Assembly (NCBI GenBank): GCA_028688015.1
Contig: JAQTZB010000004.1
Coordinates: 1-64,000 of the forward strand
From: Elusimicrobiales bacterium
GTDB lineage: Bacteria; Elusimicrobiota; Elusimicrobia; Elusimicrobiales; UBA9959
DNA: 64,000 bases
Reading direction: 5' to 3'
Shown here: one piece after another, positions 10,315-45,119 of the stretch
Position numbering within the stretch: position 1 is the stretch's first letter
How the letters are laid out: each line of letters starts with the position of its first letter
Position numbers and translations under genes: made by a program
The notes under the pieces: generated by a model
Told to the model about the DNA's origin: nothing
What the model saw: only the letters and a program-made list of their open reading frames with translations
Database searches by the model: none

Positions 10315-10692
10315 CTACGGATAGGCCACGCCGCTGGCGTTAAGCAACCGCCTGACCTCGTCAAGAAGTATCTCCCCATTTATAGGTTTTGGGAAGACGC
10401 TTACCCATTGATAGGTCAAGGGCAACCCCTTTACCCTTTCAGGCAGTCCCGTCACAAAGATAACCGGTTTCCCTAACTGGAGCACGCGGCGTATACAAGT
10501 GAAAACGAGTTCTCCCCCGCCACTCGGCATATCCACATCCAGAACCAGCAGGTCCGGACGGAAATTAGCGCACTTTGCCAGGGCAGATACGCCATTTTCC
10601 GCTGTTTCAACTTCCAGGCCAGCCTCTGAGAACAACGCCGAATAGTAGTCCACAATAATCCGTTCATCATCTGCAGCCAGTATTTTTGCCAT
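10315..10692 (-). CDS. Single-domain response regulator
   Basis: The product has 125 residues and is only a CheY-like receiver. The acidic pocket (ADDE), the phospho-acceptor Asp in LLVLDVDMP, the Thr in FVTGLPE and the Lys in FPKPIN are present. The ATG at 10692 (MAKILAADDE) is chosen, because an upstream start adds 16 residues without receiver features. No output domain is attached, so it must act through a partner protein. It lies 86 bases downstream of the small zinc-ribbon-like gene at 10779. Confidence 0.88.
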   Translation of the reverse strand: MAKILAADDERIIVDYYSALFSEAGLEVETAENGVSALAKCANFRPDLLVLDVDMPSGGGELVFTCIRRVLQLGKPVIFVTGLPERVKGLPLTYQWVSVFPKPINGEILLDEVRRLLNASGVAYP

Positions 10693-10778
10693 AGCCCCCT
10701 TCTTTTGACACCCTCCAACAGCGCAGCGCCCAACTCCCAATGTTGAGGCCCAGACTGGCCGGGCGGCATAAACCGTTG

Positions 10779-11006
10779 CTATCGCGTAATGTGCCGCAAC
10801 ACTTTGTCACAGTAACCTTTATACCACTCCTCATTGCCATAAAACCTGAACATGCACTCCGGGCAAAGCCCATGGGACCAGACTATCCGCTTGTCCTCCG
10901 CAAGAAGCCGGGTAGTCACCCTCCAGGCTCCGCTTTTATCACGTATCTTCGCGCACCCGCAACAAAGAACCACAAAACCACGATGCGTCCAGTCGTCATT
11001 ATCCAT
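10779..11006 (-). CDS. Standalone CxC / SHGxCPxC zinc-binding module
   Basis: The product has 75 residues. It reads CCGCAKIRDKSGAW, then a spacer, then WSHGLCPECMFRFYG. This is the pattern (CxxCxKIRxxxGxW ... SHGxCPxC) usually found as a C-terminal tail on PAS, kinase and response-regulator proteins. Here it is a separate gene next to a single-domain receiver (10315-10692), as if the fusion had been split. No Shine-Dalgarno site was found, and the start is uncertain. The four cysteines probably bind one zinc. Its function is unknown. Confidence 0.7.
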   Translation of the reverse strand: MDNDDWTHRGFVVLCCGCAKIRDKSGAWRVTTRLLAEDKRIVWSHGLCPECMFRFYGNEEWYKGYCDKVLRHITR

Positions 11007-11183
11007 TTTGAGACATCCATGCTCCGGAAATAATGAACAGCCCCGCGGCAGCTATCCCCAAGATCGCCAAACACTTGACAAACAAATAGACCCCATGGAT
11101 CATAGAAGCGGTCATTATCGGATATTTAAGCAACAGGCTAACACAGATTTATCCATACCTTAAAACCGGCAAGTTCTCCCGGT

Positions 11184-11558
11184 CTAGATACCGAAGGTTA
11201 TTCGTTTACCAAGCCGGTCTGTTTCCCCCTTGATTCTGGCTAAATCAAAAGGTTTAGATATTACAGTTATATCCCTAGATATCCCCATATCTGCCACTCC
11301 GGCTTTAGCCGCACCGGACACCACTAAAACGGGTATCCCGGACAGATCCGGATGCATGTCCAGCATAGCTATCATAGAATCTCCCGGGATTTCCGGCATA
11401 TGCAGGTCCGTGATAATCAGGTCGGGCTTCTTTTGCAAAGCCGAACTTATTAGTTGCACCCCGTTAGAGAAACTCTCAACTTCATGCGAAAGACCGGACA
11501 GGAAATCATCCAATAAGCAACGCAACACATCATCGTCTTCAGCAATAAGTATGCGCAT
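11184..11558 (-). CDS. Single-domain response regulator
   Basis: The product has 124 residues and is a receiver only. It has AEDDD, the acceptor Asp in LIITDLHMPE, Ser in VVSGAAK and Lys in ISKPFD. It has no output domain. It is the middle of three neighbouring receivers in the same direction (10315, 11184, 11655), separated by 100-180 bases without clear terminators. Confidence 0.88.
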   Translation of the reverse strand: MRILIAEDDDVLRCLLDDFLSGLSHEVESFSNGVQLISSALQKKPDLIITDLHMPEIPGDSMIAMLDMHPDLSGIPVLVVSGAAKAGVADMGISRDITVISKPFDLARIKGETDRLGKRITFGI

Positions 11559-11654
11559 TTAGTCGCCCCATGCCACATCTAAATATCCGCCATAACGCAA
11601 ACCACCGCCCGATAAAGAAGCGCGGCGTCCGGCCATTCCGTCAAAAAGGCCCGT

Positions 11655-12035
11655 TCATACGTGGTCCGCAGAAAAAGCCTTCCCCAGCAGAGCTACGCGC
11701 CGCAAGAAATCATCCTTATCGAAAGGCTTAATGATGTAATCATCGGCGCCGCGCTGAAGCGCGGAGGTCCGTAGGCCGGTGTTTTTTGCGCCGGTGAGAA
11801 GAATTATCGGCATATCCTTATAGCGTGTATCCCCACGTATCAGGTCCAGCAGTTCAAGTCCATCCATCCCGGGCATATTAATATCCAGCACGGCAAGGTC
11901 CGCCCCTTCTTTTTGCAACGCCTCCCCCGCCAGTCTGCCATCCGGATGCGCGGATACCCTATGCCCGGCGGAACTGAGCATCATTTGCACCGGGGCCCGC
12001 ACGTCATCGTCATCGTCCGCGATAATTATTCTCAT
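11655..12035 (-). CDS. Single-domain response regulator behind a G14 tract
   Basis: The product has 126 residues and is a complete receiver: ADDDDD, acceptor Asp in LAVLDINMPGMDG, Thr in ILLTGAK, Lys in IKPFD. The ATG at 12035 lies 8 bases after a GGAGG site and is preferred over an upstream GTG at 12044. On the coding strand the ribosome site is the end of a 14-G run (12047-12060 on the plus strand as C14), so its strength or its distance to upstream sequence could change by slippage. It follows the OmpA-like gene by about 27 bases. Confidence 0.88.
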   Translation of the reverse strand: MRIIIADDDDDVRAPVQMMLSSAGHRVSAHPDGRLAGEALQKEGADLAVLDINMPGMDGLELLDLIRGDTRYKDMPIILLTGAKNTGLRTSALQRGADDYIIKPFDKDDFLRRVALLGKAFSADHV

Positions 12036-12046
12036 TGCGACCACCT

Positions 12047-13442: not shown

Positions 13443-14501
13443 TTACTGCACAGAAATTGCGGAGACCGCACAGCGAAAGCCTATGTCATCGTTGGCTTTG
13501 TATGTACTGGCCCTGTTGGCCGACCGCATAGCCGCGGCCTCAAAAGCCCAGGAACCGCCGCGGATGACATTTTCACGTCCGGCCGGGCCCTGCGGATCAC
13601 CGCCGCCGCCATTACTGTAGGCCTGCGCATCATAGTAATCGGCAACCATTTCCCACACGTTGCCGTGCATATCGTAGAGGCCGTATTTGTTAGGTTTTTT
13701 CATGCCGACCGGGTGAGGTTCACCGCCGGAATTAGTTTCGATCCAAGCGTAATCCCCGGCCTGCCCCATGTCCTCGCCGAAGGAGAAAGCCGAAGCTGCC
13801 CCGCCGCGGGCCGCGGCCTCCCATTCGGCCTCGGTCGGCAGGCGCCGTTTCTTTGAGGCGCAGTACGCCTCTGCATCTTTTTGGGTTACGCCTATGACCG
13901 GGCAATTGGAGCAGTTTTTAAGTAATGCGGACAGCCGTCCGTAATACGGCTCGTTGCCGGTATCGATATTGAACTTCCCCGCGGGCTTGGCCCATTCCGG
14001 GTAGTTCTCACCGGCAACCGCGGCGAACTTCATGTAGTCAGCTATCGTAACCTCGTGCTTTTCCATATAAAAAGCATCCAGCCGTATCTGGCGCTTCGGG
14101 TGTTCGTCCGGCTCGCCGCTGCCTTCCGGGGAACCTACCTGATAGCTCCCGGCCGGAAGATACGACATATCTTTCGTTCTTTCACGCAAAGCGGCCAGCT
14201 TTTCATCTTCAATGAACTTCCCCGCCGCCGCAAGGCAGGCCCCGCAGGCTTTATCCGCCACCGGAGAACCGATATAAGCTTCCGTCTCCGCGGATAACAT
14301 GCCTCCACCGCCAGGCCTCCCTTCGCTCTGCGCTGCGCTGACTACATGCCCGATACGAGCCTGGGCTGAAATATACCCCAAAACCCAGAACAGCACTGCA
14401 ACAGTCAAGCAAAACAACCGCCTTTGATTGTAATCCCTGGAGGGATTGCCACAATGCGGACAGCTCTTACCTCCTGCCTTGGGCACAAGCCTTCTTTCCA
14501 T
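13443..14501 (-). CDS. Membrane-anchored SUMF1-fold protein with N-terminal zinc ribbon
   Basis: The product has 352 residues. The ATG at 14501 follows GAGGG and is preferred over an upstream TTG. Residues about 14-20 form a CPHCGNP half-ribbon facing the cytoplasm, followed by one membrane segment (LFCLTVAVLFWVLGYISA). The SUMF1 domain occupies about 115-352: YLPAGSYQVGSPEGSGEPDE, HPKRQIRLDAFYMEKHEVTI, RLPTEAEWEAAARGG, NKYGLYDMHGNVWEMVADYY, VIRGGSWAF and DDIGFRC. The catalytic Cys pair of FGE is missing, as in the paralogue at 1408. It is a distinct, more canonical member, likely acting in the periplasm. Confidence 0.88.
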   Translation of the reverse strand: MERRLVPKAGGKSCPHCGNPSRDYNQRRLFCLTVAVLFWVLGYISAQARIGHVVSAAQSEGRPGGGGMLSAETEAYIGSPVADKACGACLAAAGKFIEDEKLAALRERTKDMSYLPAGSYQVGSPEGSGEPDEHPKRQIRLDAFYMEKHEVTIADYMKFAAVAGENYPEWAKPAGKFNIDTGNEPYYGRLSALLKNCSNCPVIGVTQKDAEAYCASKKRRLPTEAEWEAAARGGAASAFSFGEDMGQAGDYAWIETNSGGEPHPVGMKKPNKYGLYDMHGNVWEMVADYYDAQAYSNGGGGDPQGPAGRENVIRGGSWAFEAAAMRSANRASTYKANDDIGFRCAVSAISVQ

Positions 14502-15005
14502 AAAGTCCCTCAAAATACCAAGTTGCTAGCGCATATTATTTCAATACGTGTGCCAGCGTATGACTTTCCGCTGACGCACACGCCCGCGTTTATACCTACG
14601 GGGCAATAGAGCCGCGGCACATTGGGCGCACCACGTTTTAAACGCGGTTATTACCGCGGAAAGACCGGCTTTCAGATCAATATCTTTTCGAGCTTTCATA
14701 ATCCACATTGCGTTACGCATTATATAACACGCTCAGGCGAACAATCACGAAGCCGCCTTTGCGACTGCGCTACGGTACCCCCAAAAAAGAGCCGGCGTTT
14801 AAGCCGGCCCTCCCACTGGCCCGTATAAAAGGGCCGCGTGGACTTCCATTAACTATCGCGACACATCGCCCGGCTTTTGCCGGTTCCCCGCCGCTAAACC
14901 TGGCGGGCACTGAGAGGCGGCATACGCCCTTATTTCAGCAACGATCTCCGCAGCTTTTGGAGATGTCTTCCAGTTTGCATCCTCACGGGTTCAATAATGC
15001 AACGC
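14502..15005. other. Intergenic region rich in short stem-loops
   Basis: No gene is supported in about 500 bases. Several short inverted repeats are visible, including the terminator at 14783-14809, GCGGTTATTACCGC near 14645 and ATCTCC/GGAGAT near 14965. A small RNA is possible but not shown. Confidence 0.4.
14783..14809 (-). terminator. Rho-independent terminator, minus strand
   Basis: On the minus strand GGGCCGGCTTAAACGCCGGC is followed by TCTTTTTTGG, a hairpin plus U-tract. It is about 200 bases beyond the stop of the gene at 15006, whose transcript it probably ends. Confidence 0.65.
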
Positions 15006-15749: not shown

Positions 15750-15950
15750 TCAGTTTGGGTCCAGTGTATTCTTGATGTTGTCCAGCAGCTCTCCGCGCGC
15801 GGTGAGTTTATACATAACCGCCTTCACTTGCGGAGACTTGTCAAAGTCCGGGACGGAGGACCACAGCCCGGTAATTACTATGATAAGTATATCACTGAAG
15901 AAATCGCTCACTTCCGGGTCGTCGTCGGCTATCAGTATTTCATTTTTCAT
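15750..15950 (-). pseudogene. Response regulator with internal in-frame deletion
   Basis: The 66-residue frame starts like a receiver (MKNEILIADDDPEVSDFFSD) and ends like one (IIVITGL, then VKAVMYKLTARGELLDNIKN), but the middle, about 35-50 residues from alpha-1 to beta-4 including the acceptor aspartate, is missing. The frame is preserved across the deletion. It cannot work as a phospho-receiver. It keeps its own terminator, and no gene of the missing part was found on this strand nearby. Confidence 0.75.
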
Positions 15951-16225: not shown

Positions 16226-16450
16226 GTGCCAAGCGTATATCTTATATCGTCCGGAGACCCGGTTCCAGACGCCGTGCTGATAGACTTGGTAATGCCAGGG
16301 CTTTCCGGCAAAGAGTTGGCGAAACGCTTGAGCGCGTTGGCGCCGGGAATCAGCGTAATCTTCACCTCCGGATATCCAGACGACTTCACCATGAAACCGA
16401 TTGGGATATCCTCGTTAGATATCTTCTCCGGAAAGCTATACAGGAACTGA
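16226..16450 (+). pseudogene. Decayed receiver domain, opposite strand
   Basis: A plus-strand frame contains PDAVLIDLVMPGLSGKELAK then RLSALAPGISVIFTSGYPDD, the beta-3 to beta-4 core of receivers attached to hybrid kinases. The start of the domain is absent. After SGYPDD the frame shifts, and beyond it another frame gives a typical C-terminal helix (LRKAIQELRLQKALR). It is a fossil in a strand otherwise empty here. Confidence 0.6.
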
Positions 16451-17458: not shown

Positions 17459-18781
17459 TCATCGCCCGTTGCCTCCGTCGGAGAATACCACCGTGGCCAC
17501 CACATCCATCCGGCGTCCGACAGCGCCTGTCGGGAGCAGAGCGTTCACCAAGTACGACGTCGGGGAATAATTGGGTTTCACCTTGGCGTTGAAAGCCTCC
17601 ATTATGCTCTGGGCCGCCGGTGAGTTGCTCTGCGCGCCGCTATAATAATCCTCAAGCCGCGTGAAGTACGGGGCGATACTGGCGGCCGCGGCGACATGCC
17701 CCGGAGACATGGGGCGCCTGGTCTTGAACACCTCCCCGATAACACGCTTCTTTTCGGCCTCAGGCAGGCCCATGGAGGAGATCACCGCCAGCGGTCCATC
17801 CGAAAGTCCAAGTCGCCCGCCTGCGGCTTTCGGGTCCAGGAAATAATTACCAACCATAGGCAAGGGGTCGAACACCGGCTTGACGCAGGCCGGAGTCCCC
17901 TCCCGCCCGAATTCCTCAGCGCGGGCCGGATCGCAATCCCTCAGGGCCAGCACCGCCCAGACGAATTCCGAACAATACATGTCCAGTCCTGAAGACCTGT
18001 CCAGCCGCAGCGCTATGCGCGCGGCCGTTCTTACGAACTTCAGGTCCGGAGTGTACTTGGGAGAAAAATAATCCTTATTGAAGGATATCTGCTCCGGGTA
18101 GATGGCGGGAGCCTGCGAAACAAACATCTTCATCCAGCCCGCCAGGTTGGCCTTCTGCGCGGCGCTCAGCCCGCGCGGACGTATTATATGCAGCGCAGGA
18201 GTTTCCATGTAGTGCCGGGCGTCCATCCGTCCCAGATACTCCGCACTGAGTGGGTTGTCGAGGTTCCTCACATACCCGCCTTCCACGTATGCTATACCGG
18301 CGTGGCTTATGCCCATCTGTATATTAGGGTAAGGCCCCTGAAAGCCCCATTCCGGTCTAAAGGTCAGCAGTATGTCCCCGGTCTGCACCAAGCCAGAAGC
18401 TGCCAGGCGGGCGCCCACCCCTGCGTGAGGAGTAAGATAAACGCGCAACCCCACCGGAGTCGCGGCATTGGCGGCATCCGGGTGAATGAAGGGCCAGAAA
18501 CCGCCACCCGACAGCGCCGCAGGCGACTCCGGCGAGTAAGCGCTTTCCGGCAACGCGAAAAAGACAGGAATGTCGAGCTTCTCCGCCAGCAGGTTATTAC
18601 TATCTGGATCGTAGACAAACGTCTCATTTACTGGGGCAGGCGGATCCGGCAATGGCGGGACCACAGCCGCGGCCGCCAAGTTAGAGGGGGTGAGCCTGTT
18701 CAGTGCCTCAAAATCGGCGGCACGCGCACCGCCGGACAGCAACGGCAGGCAGAGCGACATCAGTTTTATGGCAGTTTTCAT
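17459..18781 (-). CDS. Secreted YiiX/NlpC-P60-like (permuted papain fold) hydrolase
   Basis: The product has 440 residues from the ATG at 18781 (MKTAIKLMSLCLPLLSGGAR), which follows GGAGAAAAC. Motifs of the YiiX/YaeF group of permuted NlpC/P60 enzymes are present: GDILLTFRPEWGFQG, then ISHAGIAYVEGGYVRN with the candidate catalytic His, and LDMYCSEFVWAVL with the candidate catalytic Cys about 120 residues later. Known members cleave peptide or acyl bonds of lipids or cell-wall peptides. The extra N-terminal (about 25-115) and C-terminal (from about 330) parts are unassigned. It heads a small operon with the interrupted gene and the 16507 gene. Confidence 0.78.
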   Translation of the reverse strand: MKTAIKLMSLCLPLLSGGARAADFEALNRLTPSNLAAAAVVPPLPDPPAPVNETFVYDPDSNNLLAEKLDIPVFFALPESAYSPESPAALSGGGFWPFIHPDAANAATPVGLRVYLTPHAGVGARLAASGLVQTGDILLTFRPEWGFQGPYPNIQMGISHAGIAYVEGGYVRNLDNPLSAEYLGRMDARHYMETPALHIIRPRGLSAAQKANLAGWMKMFVSQAPAIYPEQISFNKDYFSPKYTPDLKFVRTAARIALRLDRSSGLDMYCSEFVWAVLALRDCDPARAEEFGREGTPACVKPVFDPLPMVGNYFLDPKAAGGRLGLSDGPLAVISSMGLPEAEKKRVIGEVFKTRRPMSPGHVAAAASIAPYFTRLEDYYSGAQSNSPAAQSIMEAFNAKVKPNYSPTSYLVNALLPTGAVGRRMDVVATVVFSDGGNGR

Positions 18782-18946
18782 GTCCGTTTTCTCCTTTAAC
18801 ACACACGCCCCAGACCGTTCCTAGAACCTTATGTATTCAGTTTAGCGCGTCTTCTTACGCAGGCCAAGAGGCTTTAGTCCTTGTTCGTCACAGGAAAATG
18901 CCTATTGATATCCGTAAAACCGTTTACCGTTCCATTACCGTCGGGA

Positions 18947-19150
18947 CTGGCGCAGAAGTACAAGCGCTGGGGCGCGCCCAGGATGCACGCTGCGCTCATG
19001 CGCGAAGGCCTACGAAGAACGAGAATTGGTTCCCGAATACGGTCGAAGCGAGGAAGATAGTTGAGGAATGGCGGCGGGATTACAACAGTTTCAGGCCGCA
19101 CGGCTCGCTAGAGTATCTTACGCCGCAGGAGTTTGCGGCGAGGCAAGTAA
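18947..19150 (+). pseudogene. IS3-family transposase OrfB with internal deletion
   Basis: LAQKYKRWGAPRMHAALMRE at 18947-19009 matches the HTH_21 region of OrfB. It is followed directly by TKNENWFPNTVEARKIVEEW then RRDYNSFRPHGSLEYLTPQE, which is the C-terminal end of the integrase domain. The central DDE-bearing part is missing. The start of OrfB and the terminal inverted repeats were not found. Confidence 0.8.
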
Positions 19151-19216
19151 ATGCTCAAATTTTAATCAGTCGGGGAAGAATTACCGGGGGAAGGTCGCTC
19201 CGGGGATCAGATCGTT

Positions 19217-19924: not shown

Positions 19925-20069
19925 TGTTCGCACCACAGCCGCTACGGGCAGCACGGATTAAACCGGAGAACCTCACCGACCCGCACAAGGCCGCACAAAT
20001 ATCTGTGCTATACAAGACGACCTAATTTTTAAGCATGGTGGGGCACTTCGTGGTTGAATCCGGCCCCCG

Positions 20070-23115: not shown

Positions 23116-23127
23116 ATTCTAATAACG

Positions 23128-35021: not shown

Positions 35022-35022
35022 T

Positions 35023-35631: not shown

Positions 35632-36034
35632 TTAATCCGGTTCTCCCTTTATAGGTGGAATTGGTAACTACATACTTCAGCGTAGCTCCATAGGTGGTCC
35701 TGAGGTCAGACGGCAGCCTGGATGAAACATCATGGGTGCCGGGCGAAAGAGCCCAACAAGCCGCACAGGAGGCGTCTTCCGGCATATGCCAGGGCGGGGA
35801 ACCCGGGGCATTAAGCGTTATACTGGTGTCGGCGGTAACATAGTTTTTCAGGTCTTCTTTCAACGCTGCGGAATACTCAGCAAGACTGAACCGCACCTGG
35901 CCGCTATCTTTTACCCTGAAAGAACTTAACAGTATGCCGCCCAGGGCCGCCACTGCCATAGCCAGGATTATACTTCCCAGCACTACCTCTATCAGCGCGC
36001 TGGCGCGCCTACGTTTTTTCAGCCACTGTGTCAT
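35597..36034 (-). CDS. PilV-like minor pseudopilin
   Basis: The product has 145 residues. An N-terminus of basic residues followed by ASALIEVVLGSIILAMAVAA is a modified prepilin start (ALIE instead of FTLIE). The globular part contains CAAC. It lies 75 bases after the major-pilin-like gene and overlaps the PilW-like gene. Confidence 0.78.
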   Translation of the reverse strand: MTQWLKKRRRASALIEVVLGSIILAMAVAALGGILLSSFRVKDSGQVRFSLAEYSAALKEDLKNYVTADTSITLNAPGSPPWHMPEDASCAACWALSPGTHDVSSRLPSDLRTTYGATLKYVVTNSTYKGRTGLNVKISTDWTAP

Positions 36035-36109
36035 AATCAGATTTATCCTAACTGGTCATTTCCGGCCACGGATGAACCGCGCGGCCACGCCTATCTATTG
36101 CAGCTTAGG

Positions 36110-36583
36110 TCAATATCTTGGACAGCTCGGGATGCCTGTTCCTACACCAGAACAGACCCCGGCGTCGGAGAAGTTGTACCCCCACGAGGCGTAATCGCCT
36201 GTGCCGCCATTGCGCCTTACACAGGCCACGTTACCGCTGCCGCAGGTACCGTTGCCGAGAAAGAAGTTGTACGAGGACATATCCCAGTCCTGCTTTGCGA
36301 CATAACCGCAACGGGCAATTGTGCAGGCGCCTGTATCAGTGGGATCGCAGGCGCCGCTGTTGCAGACATTGGTCACCTGTCCGCTCAGCGAAACCCCAGG
36401 ATGGTCCATTTGGAACATCTGGTGGGCATTGGCCAAAAGGTGCCCCAGCGCCACCGAATCAGTAGCCTTGGACGTCTCCACGGTTTTATGATAGTACGGT
36501 ACGCTGAGCGCGGCCAGAATGCCCATTATCAAGGTCACTACTATCAACTCTATAAGGGTAAACCCCTTTTTTTTCATTTTCAT
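36110..36583 (-). CDS. Type IV pilin-like protein
   Basis: The product has 157 residues. The leader KMKKKG and cleavage site G-FTLIELIVVTLIMGILAAL are canonical. The helix is followed by a Cys-rich globular domain (VCNSGACDPTDTGACTIARC, then CGSGNVACVRR and PSCPRY). It is the best candidate for the main pilus subunit. It starts 17 bases after the PilC gene stop. Confidence 0.9.
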   Translation of the reverse strand: MKMKKKGFTLIELIVVTLIMGILAALSVPYYHKTVETSKATDSVALGHLLANAHQMFQMDHPGVSLSGQVTNVCNSGACDPTDTGACTIARCGYVAKQDWDMSSYNFFLGNGTCGSGNVACVRRNGGTGDYASWGYNFSDAGVCSGVGTGIPSCPRY

Positions 36584-36600: not shown

Positions 36601-37824
36601 CTACCGAGCGCCTATCTGCGACAGCTGGAAGATGGGCATGAAGATGCTCATCACGATCACGGCCACCAGGCCGCCGACGCCCACGACCAGGATCGGGTCG
36701 ATCATCGAGCTGAAGCGGCGCAGCCACTGGTCTATCTGCTCCTGGTAATACTTCGAAAGCACCACGATGATGTCGGGCAGCTTGCCCGACTCTTCGCCCA
36801 TCCACATCATCTCGGTCACCATCGGCGGGAAGATGTTGGTCTTCTTGAAGGACTCCGAGATGGACCGGCCGCTGGCGATGTCGTTCTTGGCCTGCTTCAG
36901 CGCGGCCTGGAAGATCAGGTTCTTCTTGAACGCGCCCTCGAGCACCGAGACGGCGTTGAGGATGCTGACGCCCGAGCGGATCAGCGTGGCCATGGTGGTG
37001 AGCATGCGCTCGATGGCCATGGACTTGATCAGCGAGCCGACGAGCGGCATGTTGAACTGGATATGGTTCCAGGTCAGGCGGCCGGGCGGCGTGGCGATGT
37101 AGGCCTTGAAGCCGAACGCGCTGCCGATGCCGACCACGAGGATGAGCACCAGGTACTTGGTCACGACGTAGGAAATATTGACGATCACCTGCGTGATGAA
37201 AGGCAGCTGCAGGTTGAAGTCCTTGAAGATGCCGGCGAAGACCGGGACGATGTAGACGATGAAGTAGATCAGCACGCCGACCGACATGGTCATCAGCACG
37301 GCCGGGTAGGAGATGGCCGTGATGATCTTGGACTTCACGTTCTCCTGCGACTCGCTGTAGGCCGTGATCTGGCGCAGCACGGCGGGCAGCTGACCTGACA
37401 CCTCGCCGGCCTGCACCAGGGAGATCCAGATCTCGTCGAAAACCTTGGGATGCTTCTCCAGCGCCTTGTGGAAAGCGCCGCCGGCGGATACTTCCTTGGT
37501 GACGGTGGAGAGCACGGCGCCGAGGTTCTTGTTCTCGGCGTGCTCGGAGAGCAGCGACAGCGCGCGCACCAGCGGGATGCCGCCGCCTATCAGCGTGGCC
37601 ATCTGCTCGCCGAAGAACACCATCTCGCGGCCGGAGATGCTGCCCCCGCTGAGCTTCTTGATGCTCATGATGCCCTTGGACTTGGTGTCCTCGGACTGGA
37701 TGGAAAGGATGAAGAGGCCCTTGGTCTGCAGCGCCTGTACCGCGCCGTCCTCGTCGTCGGCGTCCAGGGCCCCGGTGGTCACCGTGCCCTGCGCGTCCTG
37801 GACCGTGTAAATATATCTACCCAT
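36601..37824 (-). CDS. pilC: Type IV pilus / type II secretion inner-membrane protein (PilC/GspF)
   Basis: The product has 407 residues, the usual family length. Two GspF domains (about 70-195 and 275-395) and three membrane segments (for example VGVLIYFIVYIVPVFAGIFK, LVLILVVGIGSAFGFKAYIA, VGGLVAVIVMSIFMPIF) are present, with motifs FFGEQMATLIGGGIPLVRAL, VQAGEVSGQLP and WMGEESGKLP. It forms the assembly platform for the pilus ATPase. An AAGGAG site precedes the ATG. Its codons are strongly G/C-ended, unlike the pilin genes it heads. The matching ATPases are not in this window. Confidence 0.93.
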   Translation of the reverse strand: MGRYIYTVQDAQGTVTTGALDADDEDGAVQALQTKGLFILSIQSEDTKSKGIMSIKKLSGGSISGREMVFFGEQMATLIGGGIPLVRALSLLSEHAENKNLGAVLSTVTKEVSAGGAFHKALEKHPKVFDEIWISLVQAGEVSGQLPAVLRQITAYSESQENVKSKIITAISYPAVLMTMSVGVLIYFIVYIVPVFAGIFKDFNLQLPFITQVIVNISYVVTKYLVLILVVGIGSAFGFKAYIATPPGRLTWNHIQFNMPLVGSLIKSMAIERMLTTMATLIRSGVSILNAVSVLEGAFKKNLIFQAALKQAKNDIASGRSISESFKKTNIFPPMVTEMMWMGEESGKLPDIIVVLSKYYQEQIDQWLRRFSSMIDPILVVGVGGLVAVIVMSIFMPIFQLSQIGAR

Positions 37825-38101
37825 GGTTTCTCCTTAAGTGCTGCGGTCGTATATTGGACTTTCAGATTGCGGATAATTTCCACTAAAATATTATTAGTTT
37901 GGAATCGCGAATGTAATTTAATTTATTCTTAAGACGGACGCTGTTGCTTGAACCGTAATAAATCCATCCCCTACTGGATATGCTCACTGGCCAGAGCGTC
38001 CAGCAAACTTCTGATCTGTGCATACTGTTCACGGTATATTATAAGCGCGCCGTGCACCTGAATCATGAAGAAATTACGATGAAACTTTTTTCATAAAACC
38101 G

Positions 38102-39430
38102 CTACTTATTCCTGAGCCAAGCCGCCATTTTCAGGCCCGAGTTGAATATCATTATGTATTCCCCGGAACCGTCCTTCCCGCTGACTTCCATTTTCGCCCT
38201 GGGGGTTTCAGTGCCTATCCCTACAGCGCCGGAAGTGGAAACCACCACTTGATGGGCCGTACCTGTACCGACCGCCAGAACATAGTGCTGCGTGTCGGCA
38301 CCCCTAACCTCCAGGCGGGCCGCAGCCCCGGCCATACCTATACCGACATTCCCGCTGGCTTCCACAGCAAGGCCCTGCTGCCCCGGAGCGCCTTTAAGCA
38401 TGGCCGTCCCCATTACTTTGAGTGACTCGTTCACGTTAAAATTGTTCACCGTACCCGAGGACACATAAAAGGTGGTCGCCTGCAGAAGGTCGCCCCGCCA
38501 GATAGATAGCGGATCGAACTCCGGCCCGCCGCCGCCAATAGCGACACAAGCCCACTCTGCCCCGACCAATTGCAGGATAGACCCGGCCGCGCAGCCGACG
38601 GTACTTATTTTATCCTTGGTTACGGATGCCGCCGCCAGGTCCTGATTCTGAATGCTACCGTCCACTATATGCGAGGAAACAATCACATTACCTATCCTGT
38701 CCCCGGACAACTTCCCGGCCGCGATATTCGAAGCTTCAAGGTTATACAGGCCGGCGCCGTCACCAGAGAACCAGCCGGCACTTACACTGGAGGAAACGCT
38801 CATATACCCGGTCACAGTATGCGTTCCCAACGAGATTATCGGATCTGCCCCCCCCCCGGCATGGGTCGCCGCGTGTGGGCCGGGCAGGCCGGAGCCGGAA
38901 GTAGGCACCCAGGAAACTCCATCCCAGAAATTAACCTGCTTCGCTCCAGAATCGTACCATAGGTCCCCGGGGAGAAAAGCGGCCGGAGCAGACGGCGCTG
39001 TTGTGTAGCGCTTCCCGGAAATAAGCAGGCTATTTATAGCGTAAGGCGACGAGGTCAGTTCTTCACGAGGGGTCAGCCGGTTGCCCTCTATATCCAGTTC
39101 CAGCCACAGACTACCGCTTTGCCAATCAGCGATGGCGGGCTCCAGCGCAACACGAAACACGCCCGTGGAGACACTTATGTTGTACGGCGGACTGGCCCAG
39201 AGTTCCGTGGTAGACACCGATGATGCGTATACGCGGAAAACCATAGTCCGTTGGCCACTGACCAAAAAACCGTCCTGGCGCAGATTCCCCTGGTAAGTGA
39301 ACTTGACCGGGACCTCGGCCTGCAACGGGCCTTCGGGCAAGCCCACCAGAAGGAGACCACAAAAAGCGGCCCAAACCGCTCCTACATGGAGCGACCTTTT
39401 AAGCGCTTTAACTGGCCAGACCTTTTCCAT
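38102..39430 (-). CDS. Tail-fibre-like surface protein
   Basis: The product has 442 residues. A signal-type segment (VGAVWAAFCGLLLVGLPEGP) is followed by KFTYQGNLRQDG and SSPYAINSLLISGKRY, a start common to phage-fibre-like repeat proteins. Motifs such as FWDGVSWVPTS, GNVGIGMAGAAARLEVRG and AVGIGTETPRAKMEVSGKDG follow. The C-terminus NSGLKMAAWLRNK resembles that of the 39517 protein (YSGGSLAAWIKKK). A G10 run in the coding strand (38848-38857) encodes part of AGGGADP. Confidence 0.75.
   Translation of the reverse strand: MEKVWPVKALKRSLHVGAVWAAFCGLLLVGLPEGPLQAEVPVKFTYQGNLRQDGFLVSGQRTMVFRVYASSVSTTELWASPPYNISVSTGVFRVALEPAIADWQSGSLWLELDIEGNRLTPREELTSSPYAINSLLISGKRYTTAPSAPAAFLPGDLWYDSGAKQVNFWDGVSWVPTSGSGLPGPHAATHAGGGADPIISLGTHTVTGYMSVSSSVSAGWFSGDGAGLYNLEASNIAAGKLSGDRIGNVIVSSHIVDGSIQNQDLAAASVTKDKISTVGCAAGSILQLVGAEWACVAIGGGGPEFDPLSIWRGDLLQATTFYVSSGTVNNFNVNESLKVMGTAMLKGAPGQQGLAVEASGNVGIGMAGAAARLEVRGADTQHYVLAVGTGTAHQVVVSTSGAVGIGTETPRAKMEVSGKDGSGEYIMIFNSGLKMAAWLRNK
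38848..38857. repeat. Homopolymer C10 inside a coding region
   Basis: Ten C bases (G10 on the coding strand) lie in the middle of the 38102-39430 gene. A change of one base would shift the frame and remove the C-terminal half. Confidence 0.9.
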
Positions 39431-39516: not shown

Positions 39517-40407
39517 TTACTTCTTCTTTATCCAAGCCGCCAGCGAGCCGCCTGAATAGAATTTGGCCGCATAGTTGCCGGAAGCCCCGCCGCTGTCCAC
39601 CGACAGCGCCACTCCGGTTTCTACCGCTTTATTTATGGAATGCAGATCGCCAGTACCATCACCCAGCTGAGTATCTCCTTTAGCGGTCATGCTGGAAACG
39701 AAGGTGGAGGCACCATCGACGTTAAGTTTGCCGTTCAGGTCCACGTCGCCATTGGCGGCAATGAGGTCGGCGGAATCGCTCCCCAGAGTGACATTCCCAT
39801 CGAAGGTTGCCGCGCCGAAAGCGCCGAAAGCTCCGGTAACGGTCATCGAGGCCGCGCCCATGTCCGCCTTCTGCACCGTGACCCCGGTCCCCCCCGCATT
39901 CTGAAGCAGTATCGAGTCGGCCAGATCGGTGTCCGTCCCGTTAACCATCTGTATCCTGTACGGTGTCTGGAAAGTCATAGTTGTATTATCATCGTTGGCC
40001 CAGACCATGCCGCCGCCGGAAACTTTTTTCAGCACCTGACCCCCGGCACCTCCCGCGAAGTGCACGTTAGCCACGTTGCTGAAACTGCTTACCCCGGTGA
40101 AGTACGCCCCGCCCGCGGCGAACGTGGAACCGCCTACAAAGTAGGCCCCGCTGGAAACGGCTAGGTACCCGTTGACCACTACGTTGCCCGCCCCCACAAC
40201 ACCCCCGGTATACGCCGCCTGGGTAGCGCCAAAAACCGTGAAGCCTTTGATTTCAGCGTCCGGGTCCAGCGCAGTTCCCCCGTTACCGTTTACCGTCAGG
40301 TCATCCTCTATGCCGAACTCTGTACTGTTATCCGCAGCATATGCTGCAGATCCACAGAACAACGCCAGCACCGTCATAACGCCGGCTATCAACTTTTTAG
40401 TATTCAT
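39517..40407 (-). CDS. Surface protein with fibre-type N-terminal module
   Basis: The product has 296 residues. A signal peptide (MNTKKLIAGVMTVLALFCGS) is followed by GTALDPDAEIKGFTVFGATQ, then AAYTGGVVGAGNVVVNGYLA and VSSGAYFVGGSTF. This N-terminal module is shared with the NNTA-repeat fibre at 20245. The middle has short beta repeats (AAFDGNVTLGS, NGDVDLNGKLNVDGASTFVS). The C-terminus is AKFYSGGSLAAWIKKK. It starts 13 bases after the 40421 gene, so is probably in the same operon. Confidence 0.78.
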   Translation of the reverse strand: MNTKKLIAGVMTVLALFCGSAAYAADNSTEFGIEDDLTVNGNGGTALDPDAEIKGFTVFGATQAAYTGGVVGAGNVVVNGYLAVSSGAYFVGGSTFAAGGAYFTGVSSFSNVANVHFAGGAGGQVLKKVSGGGMVWANDDNTTMTFQTPYRIQMVNGTDTDLADSILLQNAGGTGVTVQKADMGAASMTVTGAFGAFGAATFDGNVTLGSDSADLIAANGDVDLNGKLNVDGASTFVSSMTAKGDTQLGDGTGDLHSINKAVETGVALSVDSGGASGNYAAKFYSGGSLAAWIKKK

Positions 40408-40420: not shown

Positions 40421-41506
40421 TTACCAAATCACCATCAACTTCCCTGTCTTGGAGTTGCTCCCTGACACTACGCGCCAGATGTATACCCCGCTGGCCGCAC
40501 GCCCGCCCCCGGCTGTCCGGACATCCCATTTAAGCATGGGAGAGAACAGCCCGCCGGGTATCGCCAACCTTCTAACAAGACGGCCATCCAGCGTATATAT
40601 CTCGATGTTCCCCACCTGAGGGATGTTAGTGAATGTTATCCCTCCAGCCTCGGTTCCGGTCTGGCCGGCGCCGGAGCCGGCGTTCGGCCCGCCGGGCCTG
40701 AAAGGCACAGGGAAAGCGTAAACGTCCTTCACAGATTCATCTACCGTGCCAAGCAACGCATAAACCCCTGGGCGCGTAAGAGGCGCGGTTATGACTTTTG
40801 AGGCGCGGTCGGACAAGGCCGCCGGCAGTTTAGTCCACAGGGACAGAGCTTCATCCAAAGCCCAGGGATTTACGGTCTCGATCCTGACCGGGGGATTAGA
40901 GCCGTCAAGTACTCCATCCCCGTTGTCGTCCCTATACGATACAGCCAGCGCCCCGCTTTGCGCGAAGGGCCTTGCCCAGACGTCCTGCTCGTCAAAGACC
41001 GTCATTTCAATTATGTTGCCAGGCAAGAGGCGTGACCAGCCGCCCTCATTCTGTTCTATTTTGGAGTTAGCAGAATTAATGACCCCGGGGTCCACCGATA
41101 AAGGTGCAGCCATAGGGTTCCTATTTATTGTTATATCAAAGACCTCTTTGTTCACCGCACCGGGTGGAAGAGCAAGGCGCACTGCGCCTGAATTCGAAAT
41201 AGCCACAGAAGCCAGACCTTTTTGAAAAGCGAAATGTGGCGGGTTGTAAAACCCCGTACGGTTGACGTAGCCGCCGGAAACAGCCAACCCAGAACCCTCC
41301 CCCGGCAGCCTTTGTCCCGCAGACCCTCGGGCAAGATACCCGCCACCCGACAGAGGCGCGCCGCCGCCGTTATCTATTACGGAGGATTCCACCTGGTATC
41401 CTCCGGACGAAGAAACGAAGGCGTCAAGACGCGCCGCCGCGGAGACGCAGACAAAAATCCAGATGAACTTCTGGAGCGCATAACGCGCTTGCAGTATTCC
41501 TATCAT
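40421..41506 (-). CDS. Secreted protein with FlgD-like C-terminal sorting domain
   Basis: The product has 361 residues. An N-terminal hydrophobic signal (FIWIFVCVSAAARLDA) is followed by SSGGYQVESSVIDNGGGAPL and GYVNRTGFYNP, a start seen in many secreted proteins of this type. The C-terminal about 85 residues (AFPVPFRPGG, IEIYTLDGRLVRRLAIPGG, GGGRAASGVYIWRV) are a FlgD-like sorting tail, as in the 3125 protease and the 58432 protein. It is the first gene of a three-gene operon with two fibre-like proteins. No PorV-like gene is adjacent. Confidence 0.82.
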   Translation of the reverse strand: MIGILQARYALQKFIWIFVCVSAAARLDAFVSSSGGYQVESSVIDNGGGAPLSGGGYLARGSAGQRLPGEGSGLAVSGGYVNRTGFYNPPHFAFQKGLASVAISNSGAVRLALPPGAVNKEVFDITINRNPMAAPLSVDPGVINSANSKIEQNEGGWSRLLPGNIIEMTVFDEQDVWARPFAQSGALAVSYRDDNGDGVLDGSNPPVRIETVNPWALDEALSLWTKLPAALSDRASKVITAPLTRPGVYALLGTVDESVKDVYAFPVPFRPGGPNAGSGAGQTGTEAGGITFTNIPQVGNIEIYTLDGRLVRRLAIPGGLFSPMLKWDVRTAGGGRAASGVYIWRVVSGSNSKTGKLMVIW

Positions 41507-41852
41507 AATGCGAACTAAGCCCCGTGTCAGTATCCGCTAATATTATAGCGGCGGGAACCCGGTCAATCATGAGTGAATTATGTAGTTTAATGTTCAAACG
41601 CACGAAACATCTATGATCGCAATCTGAATGCTGCTATGCGAACATAAGACCAGAAGCATATTAAGGAAGCGTGGCACAGCAAAGTAGGCGCCAGCTTTGA
41701 CGTTGGATATCATTTGAGGATCCGGCATTTTTCATAACGCGAGGCGCCGGCAACTTCGCCATTTCCTCATGATTTATTCCTTAATTCTGTCGTAAACTAT
41801 CAATCAGGTGGAAACAGGCTAAAGAAGTGTGCGGGGCATTTCTACCGCTTTT
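41507..41852. other. Divergent intergenic region
   Basis: The minus strand has TATAAT at 41542-41547, about 36 bases before the ATG at 41506, with TTGACC at 41561-41566 but only 13 bases between them, so the promoter assignment is weak. No gene is seen. A rightward promoter for the decayed receiver was not recognised. Confidence 0.4.
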
Positions 41853-42203
41853 ATGTCAAAGATACTCATTGTTGACGACGACCAGAACAACAGAGCGCTT
41901 CTGGAGAACACTTTCTCAGAAGCAGGCCACAAAATAATATCCGCCGCAAGCGGCCGTGAAGGCTTGCAAAAAGCCGGACCGGAATCCCCCGACATAATAG
42001 TTGCCGGAACATCACTGCCGGAGTTGGCTGGATTCATATTTTCAGGAAACAAGCAAGCTTACCCAAGAGTGATATCCACACAGATGCGCCCACCTAGGTC
42101 ACTGTATATATCTCGAAATATCCCTACGCAGGAACCCGAAGACACTCGGGGTCGCCGCCGATTCTTCACAGGAACAGCGGCCTTCCAGATACCATCTTCA
42201 TGA
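41853..42203 (+). pseudogene. Decayed response regulator
   Basis: The frame starts as a normal receiver (MSKILIVDDDQNNRALLENT, then AASGREGLQKAGPESPDIIV) but the acceptor position reads AGTSLPELAGF in place of the usual LDxxMPxMxG, so the aspartate is lost. After GF the frame leaves the family and becomes arginine- and proline-rich. It is a decayed first member of the plus-strand receiver array. Confidence 0.75.
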
Positions 42204-42240: not shown

Positions 42241-42954
42241 ATGAGAAAAACAATTCTAGTGGTTGAGGACAATAAGGAGACCCTGGAGATGCTGGAGGCC
42301 GCGCTAGAAAGCGACGGATTCGACACAAAGTGTAAAACGACCGTGAGCGCAGGAGAGGATTTTCTGGCCCGCAACCGCCCTGATCTAATAATTCTGGACC
42401 TTGTTCTTCCCGACGGCGACGGATTAAAGATATGCGAATTTGCACGCAACAACGCGCGCCTCGCGAAAACACCTATCATCGCCCTTACCGGGCTTTGCGA
42501 GTTGAAAGACAAGAAACGGGGATTCAACACCGGTGTTGACCAATACCTTGAAAAGCCCCTGGAAATAGAGGAGCTGCTTTTATGGGTTAAGGCGCTGCTT
42601 CGCAGGATAGATTGGACCCCACCCGCCTGGACGCTGCCGGACCTTGAAGACTTGCAGATATGTAATGAAACCTATATGGTCAGATTCCAGAAAACACTTA
42701 TCCGGACCCTGACTAGGAGGGAATTCGATCTTCTCTTTCATCTAGTCTCCACCAGTCCGAGAATAATATCGAGACAGGGGATTATTTCGGAAATATGGAA
42801 AACAGTCGCAGTTGAAAACCTTGTAGACACGCATATCCACAATCTCAGAAGAAAACTGCCGCCACAGCTGGCCGCGAGAATACAGGCGGTACCAGGCAAA
42901 GGATTCCGTTACTTCTATCCAAAACACAAACAGCACTCCGTTACGGCGAACTGA
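42241..42954 (+). CDS. OmpR-family response regulator
   Basis: The product has 237 residues. The receiver (1-115) has VVEDNK, acceptor Asp in LIILDLVLPDGDG, Thr in IALTGLC and Lys in LEKPLEI. The C-terminal winged helix has TLTRREFDLLFHLVSTSPRI, LVDTHIHNLRRKLPP and VPGKGFRYFYP. It is the second member of a five-gene plus-strand receiver array. No kinase is adjacent. Confidence 0.88.
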   Translation: MRKTILVVEDNKETLEMLEAALESDGFDTKCKTTVSAGEDFLARNRPDLIILDLVLPDGDGLKICEFARNNARLAKTPIIALTGLCELKDKKRGFNTGVDQYLEKPLEIEELLLWVKALLRRIDWTPPAWTLPDLEDLQICNETYMVRFQKTLIRTLTRREFDLLFHLVSTSPRIISRQGIISEIWKTVAVENLVDTHIHNLRRKLPPQLAARIQAVPGKGFRYFYPKHKQHSVTAN

Positions 42955-43128: not shown

Positions 43129-43923
43129 ATGAGCCGCGGCCGAAAACTTAAAAATAACTTAAGTGGACCCGACACACGCACTTTGGGAAAATATCATTAT
43201 ACGGGCTTTGCACAGTTCATGGCTTCATTTAGTCTCTTCTTAAGAACTCTTGATCACACCATACGGAAACGTTGGGTATGCGCTTTTAAAAAAGAGGGGT
43301 GGGAAATTAGAGACTTTAGCGTCCAAGATTCCCCGATGGCACCCGCCAACGGCGCAGAACTGGCGCTTGTGGAGGTTGGGACACAATTGTGCCGGACACC
43401 CGCAGAACTTCTGTCAATAATAGAATCAAGAAATCCTGTTGCAGTCTTTGCTTTTGCTCCTCAGCAAAAGGTTACTTCTTCACAGATAGTATCCTTCTTG
43501 GCTGCCGGAGCTGATGACTTTATCTTTAGCAACATGGATGAGCGGCTAGTAGTAGCGAAACTCAAAGCCTATTTACGAAGATTGCACCCGGCGAGCGAAG
43601 CAATATTGCCGAAATTGGCATCATGCAATGGAGACATATTCATTGATAGATACACACGCGTTGTAAGAATAAAAACTGCCAGTGGCGGCGATACTGAGCT
43701 TCTAAATTTCACGCAAAAAGAATTAGATATACTCGCGATGCTCGTTTGCAACGAAAGAAAGGCTGTATCCAGAGAAAATATTCTGGAAAGACTTTGGGGA
43801 GAAGAATCCACAAAGGTATATTCCGACTGCATAAATAAACATATCGAGACTATAAGACGAAAACTGGGGGTTCACGGGAAGAGAATACGCACCGTTTACG
43901 GATCAGGCTATATGTTCACTTAG
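43129..43923 (+). CDS. OmpR-type regulator with degenerate receiver (Asp to Glu)
   Basis: The product has 264 residues if started at 43129. A start at 43219 (MASFSLFLRTLDHT) better fits the usual receiver boundary; neither has a ribosome site. The receiver-like part lacks the DD pocket, and the expected acceptor site reads ALVEVG, glutamate instead of aspartate. The winged helix is intact: FTQKELDILAMLVCNERKAV, SDCINKHIETIRRKLG and TVYGSGYMFT. Such regulators may act without phosphorylation. It lies within the plus-strand array, 15 bases before a normal receiver. Confidence 0.8.
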   Translation: MSRGRKLKNNLSGPDTRTLGKYHYTGFAQFMASFSLFLRTLDHTIRKRWVCAFKKEGWEIRDFSVQDSPMAPANGAELALVEVGTQLCRTPAELLSIIESRNPVAVFAFAPQQKVTSSQIVSFLAAGADDFIFSNMDERLVVAKLKAYLRRLHPASEAILPKLASCNGDIFIDRYTRVVRIKTASGGDTELLNFTQKELDILAMLVCNERKAVSRENILERLWGEESTKVYSDCINKHIETIRRKLGVHGKRIRTVYGSGYMFT

Positions 43924-43938
43924 CGATTATCAAATTTC

Positions 43939-44319
43939 ATGAAAAAAAAGACTTTGACGATATTAAGCATTGATGACAACACAAACTATCAACTGATTTT
44001 TGCGAAATATTTCACCCTGGTCGGCGGCCACAAAGTGGAAGTGGCTGAAACCGGGAACATAGGGATAAGCAAAGCCAGCAACCTCAAGCCTGACATCATT
44101 CTACTGGATTTAAATATGCCTGACATGACAGGCTACGAAGTGATATCCGCACTAGAGACAACGAATACCACATCGGATATTCCAGTCATAATTCTGACCG
44201 GGGATTCGGTTAGCGAGAATTCATATCATTCATTGAAACTCAAAAAGAATTTCCTGCAATTACAAGTGAAACCCGTAAACCTGGAAAGGCTGTTAAAAAC
44301 TATTGAGTCGACACTTTAA
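43939..44319 (+). CDS. Single-domain response regulator
   Basis: The product has 126 residues. It has SIDDN, acceptor Asp in IILLDLNMPDMTG, Thr in IILTGDS and Lys in QVKPVNL. It follows the degenerate regulator by 15 bases and precedes the next receiver by 21 bases, so it is likely in one transcript. Confidence 0.88.
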   Translation: MKKKTLTILSIDDNTNYQLIFAKYFTLVGGHKVEVAETGNIGISKASNLKPDIILLDLNMPDMTGYEVISALETTNTTSDIPVIILTGDSVSENSYHSLKLKKNFLQLQVKPVNLERLLKTIESTL

Positions 44320-44340
44320 CGATATCTACAAGGGCTCGCC

Positions 44341-44736
44341 ATGAAAATACTAATTGCGGAAGATGACGACAACGTTCGAACACTTATCGCAGAAATACTT
44401 ACCCAGGCTGGACACACCGCTATCCCAACAACTAACGGGTTGCAAGCGTGGGAAAGATTGCATACCGAGGGAGCGGACCTATTGGTCACGGACATCAATA
44501 TGCCCGTGATGGACGGTCTACAATTGCTATCAAAAATACGTTCCTCCGATACGCACAGCGCCCTTCCGGCCTTGGTGCTCACCATCAAGGCCCTTACCGA
44601 AGATCAGATATCAGGATATGAGACCGGTGCCGATGATTACCTTGTAAAACCTTTCGATAATGAAGTTTTTGTGGCCCGCATAAACGCTCTTGAACGCAGA
44701 ATTGTAAAAAAAATCAGGACTAACCAGTCACTCTAG
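44341..44736 (+). CDS. Single-domain response regulator
   Basis: The product has 131 residues. It has AEDDDN, acceptor Asp in LLVTDINMPVMDG, Thr in LVLTIKA and Lys in LVKPFDN. The YETGADDYLVKPFDN segment is like that of transcription-factor receivers, but no output domain follows; a short basic tail (RRIVKKIRTNQ) ends the protein. It ends 2 bases before the next gene. Confidence 0.88.
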   Translation: MKILIAEDDDNVRTLIAEILTQAGHTAIPTTNGLQAWERLHTEGADLLVTDINMPVMDGLQLLSKIRSSDTHSALPALVLTIKALTEDQISGYETGADDYLVKPFDNEVFVARINALERRIVKKIRTNQSL

Positions 44737-44738
44737 CA

Positions 44739-45119
44739 ATGAGCAACAAAAAGAAAGTCTTAGTGGTAGACGACAACCAGAATTTCAGTCAGTTACTTCA
44801 ATACGCATTGGAGGATGATTTTGAAACATATTCCGAATCGGATGGCCGGGCTGGAGTGGACACCGCTATCAAGATACTACCAGATTTGATATTGATGGAC
44901 GTCATGATGCCAGAAATTTCAGGCATCGAGATGGCCAGAATTCTCGTCGCCAAAGAGGAGACACGGGATATCCCGATTGTAGTATTAACCGGCAGCCATC
45001 TAGACAAGGGCATGCCCGCACTATTCAAACAGGAACGCAACGTCAGGTTTTTCCTAAGTAAGGCGACCCCAGTAATGGATATTGTAGAGATTGTAAAAAG
45101 AATACTCTCTGTCGATTAG
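44739..45119 (+). CDS. Single-domain response regulator (extended-loop type)
   Basis: The product has 126 residues. It has VVDDNQ, acceptor Asp in LILMDVMMPEISG and Thr in VVLTGSH, an extended loop LDKGMPALFKQERNVRFFLS and then K in SKATPV. The loop is very like that of the receiver at 27203. It is the last member of the plus-strand array and is immediately followed by the GC-rich core region. Confidence 0.88.
   Translation: MSNKKKVLVVDDNQNFSQLLQYALEDDFETYSESDGRAGVDTAIKILPDLILMDVMMPEISGIEMARILVAKEETRDIPIVVLTGSHLDKGMPALFKQERNVRFFLSKATPVMDIVEIVKRILSVD

Follow-up and report, generated by a model that had tools for sequence, protein, structure and literature searches.

A conserved array of response regulators in an Elusimicrobiales genome and a candidate split regulator of its surface genes

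We analysed the first 64 kb (64,000 nucleotides, hereafter the window) of the 267-kb contig JAQTZB010000004.1 (C49) from assembly GCA_028688015.1 of an Elusimicrobiales bacterium, whose genome comprises 3.34 Mb in 58 contigs. An earlier note, made from the sequence alone, had described here a dense array of response regulators with a single histidine kinase. Comparison with relatives, those matching a window protein being Elusimicrobia metagenome-assembled genomes, makes us lean towards the view that the array forms a conserved locus for signalling, in which a surface regulon is run by a response regulator split into two proteins, the DNA-binding pseudo-receiver protein OmpR5 and the stand-alone receiver R10. 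The comparison yielded the gene order, a shared promoter box, residue losses in OmpR5 and co-variation of its recognition helix with the box. At the level of sequence, a surface regulon sharing this box is well supported and OmpR5 is likely to bind it; that R10 controls OmpR5 we infer.

A core of two regulators beside a conserved surface gene

The core of the locus consists of the following genes:
43129-43923, + strand: OmpR5, OmpR/PhoB winged-helix regulator with a pseudo-receiver, in which Pfam finds Trans_reg_C only
44341-44736, + strand: R10, single-domain receiver linked to OmpR5 (27 of 30 loci)
40421-41506, - strand: w40421, judged by eye a probable secreted protein; serves as anchor for the conserved locus

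Since w40421 is independent of the regulators as an anchor, species genomes of GTDB were scanned with it, which yielded 36 loci, 30 of them (L116-L145) matching most of the protein. OmpR5 was present in 27 of the 30 loci (missing in L130, L137 and L145), R10 likewise in 27 (missing in L137, L145 and in L134, where the contig ends), and both together in 26. The frames of the two genes touch or overlap in 18 of these 26 loci, and at least one small gene lies between them elsewhere. As a second test, 15 further OmpR5 loci were inspected, three of which contain w40421 (L220, L224 and L226, with L220 and L226 repeating L141 and L143). An R10-like receiver was found within 1 kb in 10 of the 12 loci without a visible w40421. 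Because the contigs of L225, L227 and L228 end beside OmpR5, w40421 may be out of view there; among the nine loci that do not end beside OmpR5, R10 was present in seven.

No kinase belongs to this core. A kinase profile search over 425 kb of the 30 w40421 loci, 25 of which reach at least 3 kb upstream, detected three kinases, none of which has OmpR5 or R10 within 5 kb: those in L119 and L141 lie further than 5 kb from both, and the one in L145, which lacks both regulators, lies about 2 kb from w40421.

The alignment of OmpR5 puts its start near 43219, which suggests that this rather than 43129 is the true start. In a residue census of 42 distinct OmpR5-family and 30 R10 sequences, all five active-site residues were present in every R10 sequence (30/30). 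The acidic pair was found in none of the 42 OmpR5 sequences (two of them are cut there), and the phospho-site carries Asp in 5, Glu in 28 and a gap in one. Thr never occupies the T site, where 16 sequences have Ser, and the alignment places a Lys at the conserved position in 8. With its acidic pair lost throughout and Asp in 5 of 42 sequences, OmpR5 does not classify as a phosphorylatable receiver and falls among the pseudo-receivers, which have a receiver fold without the catalytic residues. Pfam, AlphaFold and Foldseek agree on a Trans_reg_C winged helix after the receiver fold, the arrangement of the OmpR/PhoB family. The AlphaFold model (mean pLDDT, the predicted confidence score, 85) combines a receiver fold lacking helix 2 with a winged helix, and a Foldseek search with it placed CosR, RpaA and RitR near the top. 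Judged by eye, R10 and OmpR5 each retain an OmpR-like alpha4-beta5-alpha5 segment.

The promoter box and its predicted binder

Conserved in-frame residues upstream of w40421 gave the first hint of a box, a direct repeat whose period is 11 bp (TTCGnnATT-TC-TTCGGGATT, with variants), which stands upstream of this gene in 29 of the 30 loci (not in L145). A TATAAT-like -10 element lies 17 bp past the box in 28 loci and 18 bp past it in L144. Most boxes (25 of 29) deviate from the consensus by at most one mismatch, and the others by two (L137), three (L141), five (L143) and six (L116). The pho box and the layout of PhoB-activated promoters served for comparison, and the box shares their plan, with 11-bp direct repeats occupying the -35 position at a fixed spacing from the -10.

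The standard box (at most one mismatch) occurs in 37 of 59 genomes of the family, and a reversed control pattern gave no match. The DNA examined contained 48 distinct sites, of which 28 precede w40421, 16 a PorV-like gene and one the histidine kinase gene HK; the remaining three precede an R2-like gene (doubtful), an unknown gene (doubtful) and no gene before the contig end. In G005 HK itself stands behind a box. The standard box has no match in the window's own genome. A variant pattern taken from its own w40421 promoter gave 13 matches there at up to three mismatches, five of them in the window, and one match with the reversed control. When a -10 at exactly 17 bp was demanded as well, four sites remained in the 45-kb low-GC island at the start of the contig, including the one from which the pattern came; 60 Markov resamplings of the island produced a mean of 0.03 and a maximum of one such site, and 362 kb of the own genome outside the island contained none. 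The boxes of the window are:
41565-41582, - strand: box before w40421, -10 TATAAT 17 bp downstream
38061-38078, - strand: box before PilC with a leader of ~215 bp, -10 TATAAT 17 bp downstream; predicted operon with the pilins, R8 and R7
31975-31992, - strand: box before R6-MEM-HK-R5, -10 TATACT 17 bp downstream; operon predicted from order and strand
23917-23934, - strand: box before YPSP1, with a YadA-like gene behind, -10 TATAAT 17 bp downstream
41757-41774, + strand: weaker fifth box facing the regulator genes, -10 TAAACT

Of the 27 w40421 loci with OmpR5, 24 have the recognition helix DKH in this protein, in every case together with the half-site CGGGATT. The helix NKH, found in the window and in L116 (GWA2_61_42), goes with CATGATT, and DKY (L141, L143 and L224) with CAGGATT or CAAGATT; a second locus of GWA2_61_42 (L123) again combines DKH with CGGGATT. 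These helix positions make base contacts in PhoB. Changes in the OmpR5 helix thus appear mostly to track changes in the box. The helix of OmpR4, another OmpR-type regulator of the locus, reads LVDTH without change in the window and in L116, whose box changed, and LADIH in L141. Across the 59 genomes, 31 have both OmpR5 and the standard box, 4 OmpR5 only, 6 the box only and 18 neither (Fisher p 1e-6, a value that overstates independence because the genomes are related). The OmpR5-only genomes include the own one, G063 and G067, each of which has a variant box.

Several observations weigh against this assignment or against the link to R10. The main result against OmpR5 as the binder is a set of six genomes with a standard box in which OmpR5 was not detected (G015, G025, G008, G004, G069 and G077), the box standing before the PorV-like gene in the first five of them. 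Conversely, G071, G063 and G067 have OmpR5 without a standard box. The co-variation of helix and box comes from about two lineages; the changed box of L141 is not attributable to OmpR5 alone, because the OmpR4 helix also differs there, and G033 has the w40421 box CAGGATT (L130) yet an OmpR5 on another contig (L222) that reads DKH. Within the window, the -10 of the fifth box is poor, and neither inspection by eye nor the pattern scans revealed a box before the units of YPSP2-4 and OmpR1-3. The tie between R10 and OmpR5 is one of gene neighbourhood, and even here L216 and L222 have OmpR5 without an adjoining R10 and L130 has R10 without OmpR5. Finally, the Ser at the T site (16/42) and the Lys (8/42) of OmpR5 are residual active-site features.

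As a mechanism, we propose that OmpR5 would sit on the 11-bp direct repeat, which takes the place of a -35 element at a distance of 17 bp from the -10, and activate transcription in a PhoB-like manner. Phosphorylated R10 would probably pair with the pseudo-receiver of OmpR5 and thereby supply the missing phosphate switch, the phosphate probably coming from HK (with its neighbour R5), from a second kinase, HK2, or from both. The targets would be probable secreted proteins, a PorV-like outer-membrane protein and pilins, in one family of the Elusimicrobia. Because the HK unit itself stands behind a box, the circuit would be self-reinforcing, with positive feedback. That a phosphorylatable stand-alone R10 switches OmpR5 by pairing in trans, as a family-wide master switch of the surface regulon, is offered as a tentative proposal, which we hold with less assurance than the split regulator itself.

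The array, its kinases and its surface genes

Receivers and kinases were counted by Pfam searches of the own genome for Response_reg and HATPase_c, which gave 119 and 57 matches, respectively, in 3.34 Mb. The segment C49:10357-45095 contains 17 of the 119 receiver matches and one of the 57 kinase matches, and is the densest 35-kb stretch of the genome for receivers, about 1.2 being expected at uniform density; the density described in the earlier note is therefore real, as are its 11 single-domain receivers and its one histidine kinase at 29038-30426. The runner-up, C39:114809-132589, contains 11 receivers and 5 kinases, most of them encoded in long open frames of the size expected for hybrid kinases. 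Of the five OmpR-type regulators that the note had taken as intact, four have canonical receivers, and in the fifth (43129-43923, OmpR5) Pfam recognizes the DNA-binding domain only. Two of the 17 receiver matches are decayed copies, one of them below the Pfam cut-off. A third claim, of three decayed receivers, is reduced to one clear case (41853-42032, + strand, E 2.5e-17) and two weak candidates (16265-16336, + strand, E 0.0013; 15762-15950, - strand, in two pieces, E 0.015 and 0.37). The members of the array, apart from OmpR5 and R10, and the genes between them are:
10315-10740, - strand: R1, single-domain receiver
11184-11558, - strand: R2, single-domain receiver; in L070, L199 and L204, relatives stand between R5 and the PorV-like gene
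11655-12044, - strand: R3, single-domain receiver, within the R10 clade of the tree
19217-19954, - strand: OmpR1
24856-25581, - strand: OmpR2, with relatives in L198 (G014) and L076
25616-26323, - strand: OmpR3, local duplicate of OmpR2
27203-27643, - strand: R4, single-domain receiver, in the tree near a receiver beside the long HK paralogue
28625-29041, - strand: R5, single-domain receiver, conserved neighbour of HK
29038-30426, - strand: HK, histidine kinase (Pfam HisKA and HATPase_c)
30462-31430, - strand: MEM, hydrophobic protein (by eye) without a Pfam family
31441-31905, - strand: R6, single-domain receiver encoded first in the HK unit
33842-34219, - strand: R7, single-domain receiver; R7 and R8 are a local pair of duplicates
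34289-34672, - strand: R8, single-domain receiver
34710-36583, - strand: pilin-like genes (N-methylation motif examined for 36110-36583 alone)
36601-37824, - strand: PilC / type II secretion system F protein
41853-42032, + strand: N-terminal half of a decayed receiver (E 2.5e-17)
42241-42954, + strand: OmpR4, canonical OmpR-type regulator (above 150 bits in 8 of 30 loci)
43939-44319, + strand: R9, single-domain receiver located between OmpR5 and R10, with relatives at the equivalent position in L116, L117, L119, L120 and L138 (weak branch support)
44739-45119, + strand: R11, single-domain receiver, nearest to L116, L138, L120 and L124

In L218 (4772-5728, - strand) a single open frame encodes both an R9-like and an R10-like receiver, which may be a natural fusion. 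To the right of the array, the next receiver match lies at C49:144969 and the next HATPase_c match at C49:146166, so that about 100 kb contain neither; the possibility raised earlier, that kinases flank the island just outside the window, does not apply on this side, and the left flank is unseen because the window begins at the contig end. Scans of the window with Rfam (gathering threshold) and for tRNAs gave no match. Among the 40 window proteins searched with Pfam, the sole trace of a mobile element is an integrase-core (rve_3, IS3-like) transposase fragment (18703-19269, + strand).

A FastTree phylogeny of 201 receivers, some branches of which are weakly supported, included 72 of the 119 from the own genome, those of the window among them. 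Only R7/R8 and OmpR2/OmpR3 pair within the window; R1 and R3 have their nearest neighbours among the other receivers of the own genome, R6 lacks a close neighbour, and the remaining window receivers are nearest to genes of relatives, R4 to a receiver that adjoins the long kinase paralogue. The tree thus led us to reject recent expansion as the main origin of the array; the repeated duplication that the note had read as continuing change applies to these two pairs only. By sequence comparison, the array is an old, conserved cluster and not mainly a heap of decaying duplicates, and most of its members have relatives next to the same surface genes elsewhere in the Elusimicrobia. An R4-like receiver also follows the longer kinase paralogue (~715 aa) in relatives (L078-L081) and on contig C51 of the own genome.

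Gene order is kept together with the surface genes, as the note had supposed, and its alternative of receivers standing singly beside unrelated genes is not the pattern in the relatives fetched. The syntenic array of G005 (L072) contains R11, R10, R9, OmpR5, OmpR4, w40421, w39517, w38102, R7/R8, HK and R5. In G017 (L098/L138 and L199) a single contig carries R11, R10, R9, OmpR5, OmpR4, w40421, w39517, w38102 and the YadA-like gene, and also R1, HK, R5, R2, the PorV-like gene and HK2. The presence of R9, R11, OmpR4 and other receivers differs between lineages.

Orthologues of HK in related genomes are 44-59% identical to it, and a longer paralogue family also exists there. An R5-like receiver adjoins HK in 9 of the 14 orthologous places fetched, and by adjacency and conservation the two form a kinase-regulator pair. 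The five other places have a kinase with stops (L068), an R8-like receiver (L071), no receiver (L074), an R4-like receiver (L076) or a contig end (L077). The orthologue in L068 (G033:C1, 9845-11140) has three in-frame stops, and the kinase may therefore be disappearing in this relative. On contig C40, HK2 follows the PorV-like gene that belongs to the same regulon. MEM has matches in 25 of 61 genomes, the own one included; used as a synteny anchor, it led to 14 short loci without a receiver or window-type kinase.

The other surface genes of the locus are:
39517-40407, - strand: w39517, probable secreted protein resembling the YadA-like gene; follows w40421 in many loci
38102-39430, - strand: w38102, probable secreted protein; follows w40421 in many loci
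20245-24771, - strand: YadA-like gene and the paralogues YPSP1 and YPSP2, two of them examined and without a Pfam family

Secretion was judged by eye from the N-termini. The structural model of w40421 shows weak similarity to PorZ and PorU (E 3e-5 to 5e-5) as well as to C-terminal domains of the type IX secretion system (T9SS; E ~0.02); because the model has low-confidence stretches (residues 26-86 are below pLDDT 50), this likeness is a lead only. UPF0164 scored above its cut-off at 5959-7002 and 61943-63067, and PorV at 61943-63067 only. Four YPSP paralogues (- strand; 23128-24078, 24115-24771, 26529-27134 and 32069-32671) share an N-terminal signature like LETYYPSPVGVYxNLTVTSTTVLA, and matches, mostly to the N-terminal part, occur in 38 of 61 genomes, the own one included. 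Two FGE-sulfatase-type proteins (1408-2436 and 13443-14513, - strand) are found among the surface genes, and eight FGE-sulfatase-like open frames cluster near the PorV-like/HK2 region of L204 (G027:C34, 2-6778).

From position 1 to about 45.1 kb the window has a GC content of 0.55 and a deviant tetranucleotide profile, against about 0.64 in DNA sampled elsewhere in the genome. Contig C40 is likewise low in GC at its end (~384 kb to 395,991), which holds the PorV-like gene with the window's lineage-specific half-site CATGATT, followed by HK2. Since normal-GC DNA precedes this end and the half-site is of the window type, the low-GC region very probably belongs to the own genome; it may span the end of C40 and the start of C49, a join deduced from these features.

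Alternative explanations and known systems

The probabilities that we attach to the alternatives overlap and need not sum to one. The most serious of them, although less likely than the switch by R10, is that OmpR5 is constitutive, with Glu at the phospho-site (28 of 42 sequences), and controlled solely by its amount, while R10 and the other receivers act elsewhere, for example on the pilus or secretion machinery. ChxR provides a precedent, as a Glu-bearing receiver without Asp (excerpts of PMC4395418) that requires no phosphorylation (excerpts of PMC3960148), and control by expression level is discussed in the available part of PMC12632262. However, a separate output of R10 needs no linkage to OmpR5, and R10 accompanies it in 26 of the 30 w40421 loci and lies no more than 1 kb away in 10 of the 12 with no visible w40421. 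We regard as unlikely that the binder of the box is OmpR4 or some distant OmpR-type regulator, with OmpR5 as an accessory. The six box-bearing genomes without detected OmpR5 speak for it, as does OmpR4 itself, which is the regulator nearest to w40421 in several loci and whose helix differs together with the box in L141; yet OmpR4 (above 150 bits) occurs in 8 of 30 loci compared with 29 of 30 for the box, and its LVDTH helix is unchanged in the window and L116 despite the changed box.

About equally unlikely is a many-to-one relay, as the earlier note had suggested, in the form considered here with HK and HK2 phosphorylating many single-domain receivers, which would act as sinks or relays around OmpR1-4. 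It would suit the single HATPase_c match (of 57) in the array and the acidic pair and phospho-Asp kept by 15 of the 16 array regulators. This retention also disfavours the note's other idea, of receivers as pure binding modules, the exception being OmpR5, a predicted DNA binder. Against a relay, no histidine phosphotransfer (HPt) protein or hybrid kinase was found among the 40 window proteins searched with Pfam, HK has its conserved neighbour R5, a second kinase stands behind the regulon's PorV-like gene on C40, and the best-conserved core is without a kinase. Very improbable, finally, is a chance pile-up of receivers without common function in a low-GC island or an assembly chimera, as might be suspected from the composition of the first 45.1 kb and the listed contamination of the assembly (6.93%). 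The gene order is conserved in other species, the boxes are shared, and the unusual CATGATT half-site recurs before the PorV-like gene at the low-GC end of C40, after normal-GC DNA; a chimera or pile-up was rejected on these grounds.

With the split regulator of OmpR5 and R10 as the preferred reading, the locus yields a predicted regulon for an uncultured group. Because a natural pair is conserved beside a predicted operator, the switching of a pseudo-receiver could be put to the test using two small proteins and a single promoter. According to excerpts of a 2025 review, activation of pseudo-receivers is a mystery and a central unanswered question, and heterodimers of receiver and pseudo-receiver are raised there as a possibility (PMC12632262). 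According to the available part of a 2015 survey, five classes, Elusimicrobia included, have no Asp-less receivers (PMC4395418), in contrast to the non-Asp residue at the phospho-site of 36 of the 42 OmpR5 sequences (5 Asp, 1 gap). In literature from PubMed Central on Elusimicrobia regulation, secretion or pili and on atypical, split or stand-alone receivers, judged from top-ranked titles and the starts of abstracts, the system was not described.

Among known regulators, CosR is atypical, BldM and WhiI are both DNA-binding, and we know of no conserved stand-alone receiver partner of ChxR, RitR or CosR. The last three share the OmpR/PhoB fold with OmpR5, and the receivers of ChxR and RitR lack the Asp (excerpts of PMC4395418). 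BldM and WhiI of Streptomyces resemble the core as two atypical regulators that act jointly at promoters (excerpts of PMC4125116), whereas here a bare intact receiver is combined with a pseudo-receiver regulator. In PleD of Caulobacter a phosphorylated receiver acts on a pseudo-receiver, but a single chain contains both domains there and has a diguanylate cyclase as its output (excerpts of PMC12632262). PorXY-SigP, which exerts two-component control over surface-secretion genes of the Porphyromonas T9SS, employs an extracytoplasmic function (ECF) sigma factor in place of the OmpR-type box found here (excerpts of PMC4800418). CmrRST of Clostridioides difficile likewise encodes a pseudo-receiver regulator of the OmpR family together with a canonical response regulator (excerpts of PMC12632262 and PMC12548384); there, as far as these excerpts go, the kinase and both regulators lie in one operon, whereas in the Elusimicrobia the core is without a kinase and the intact partner without a DNA-binding domain.

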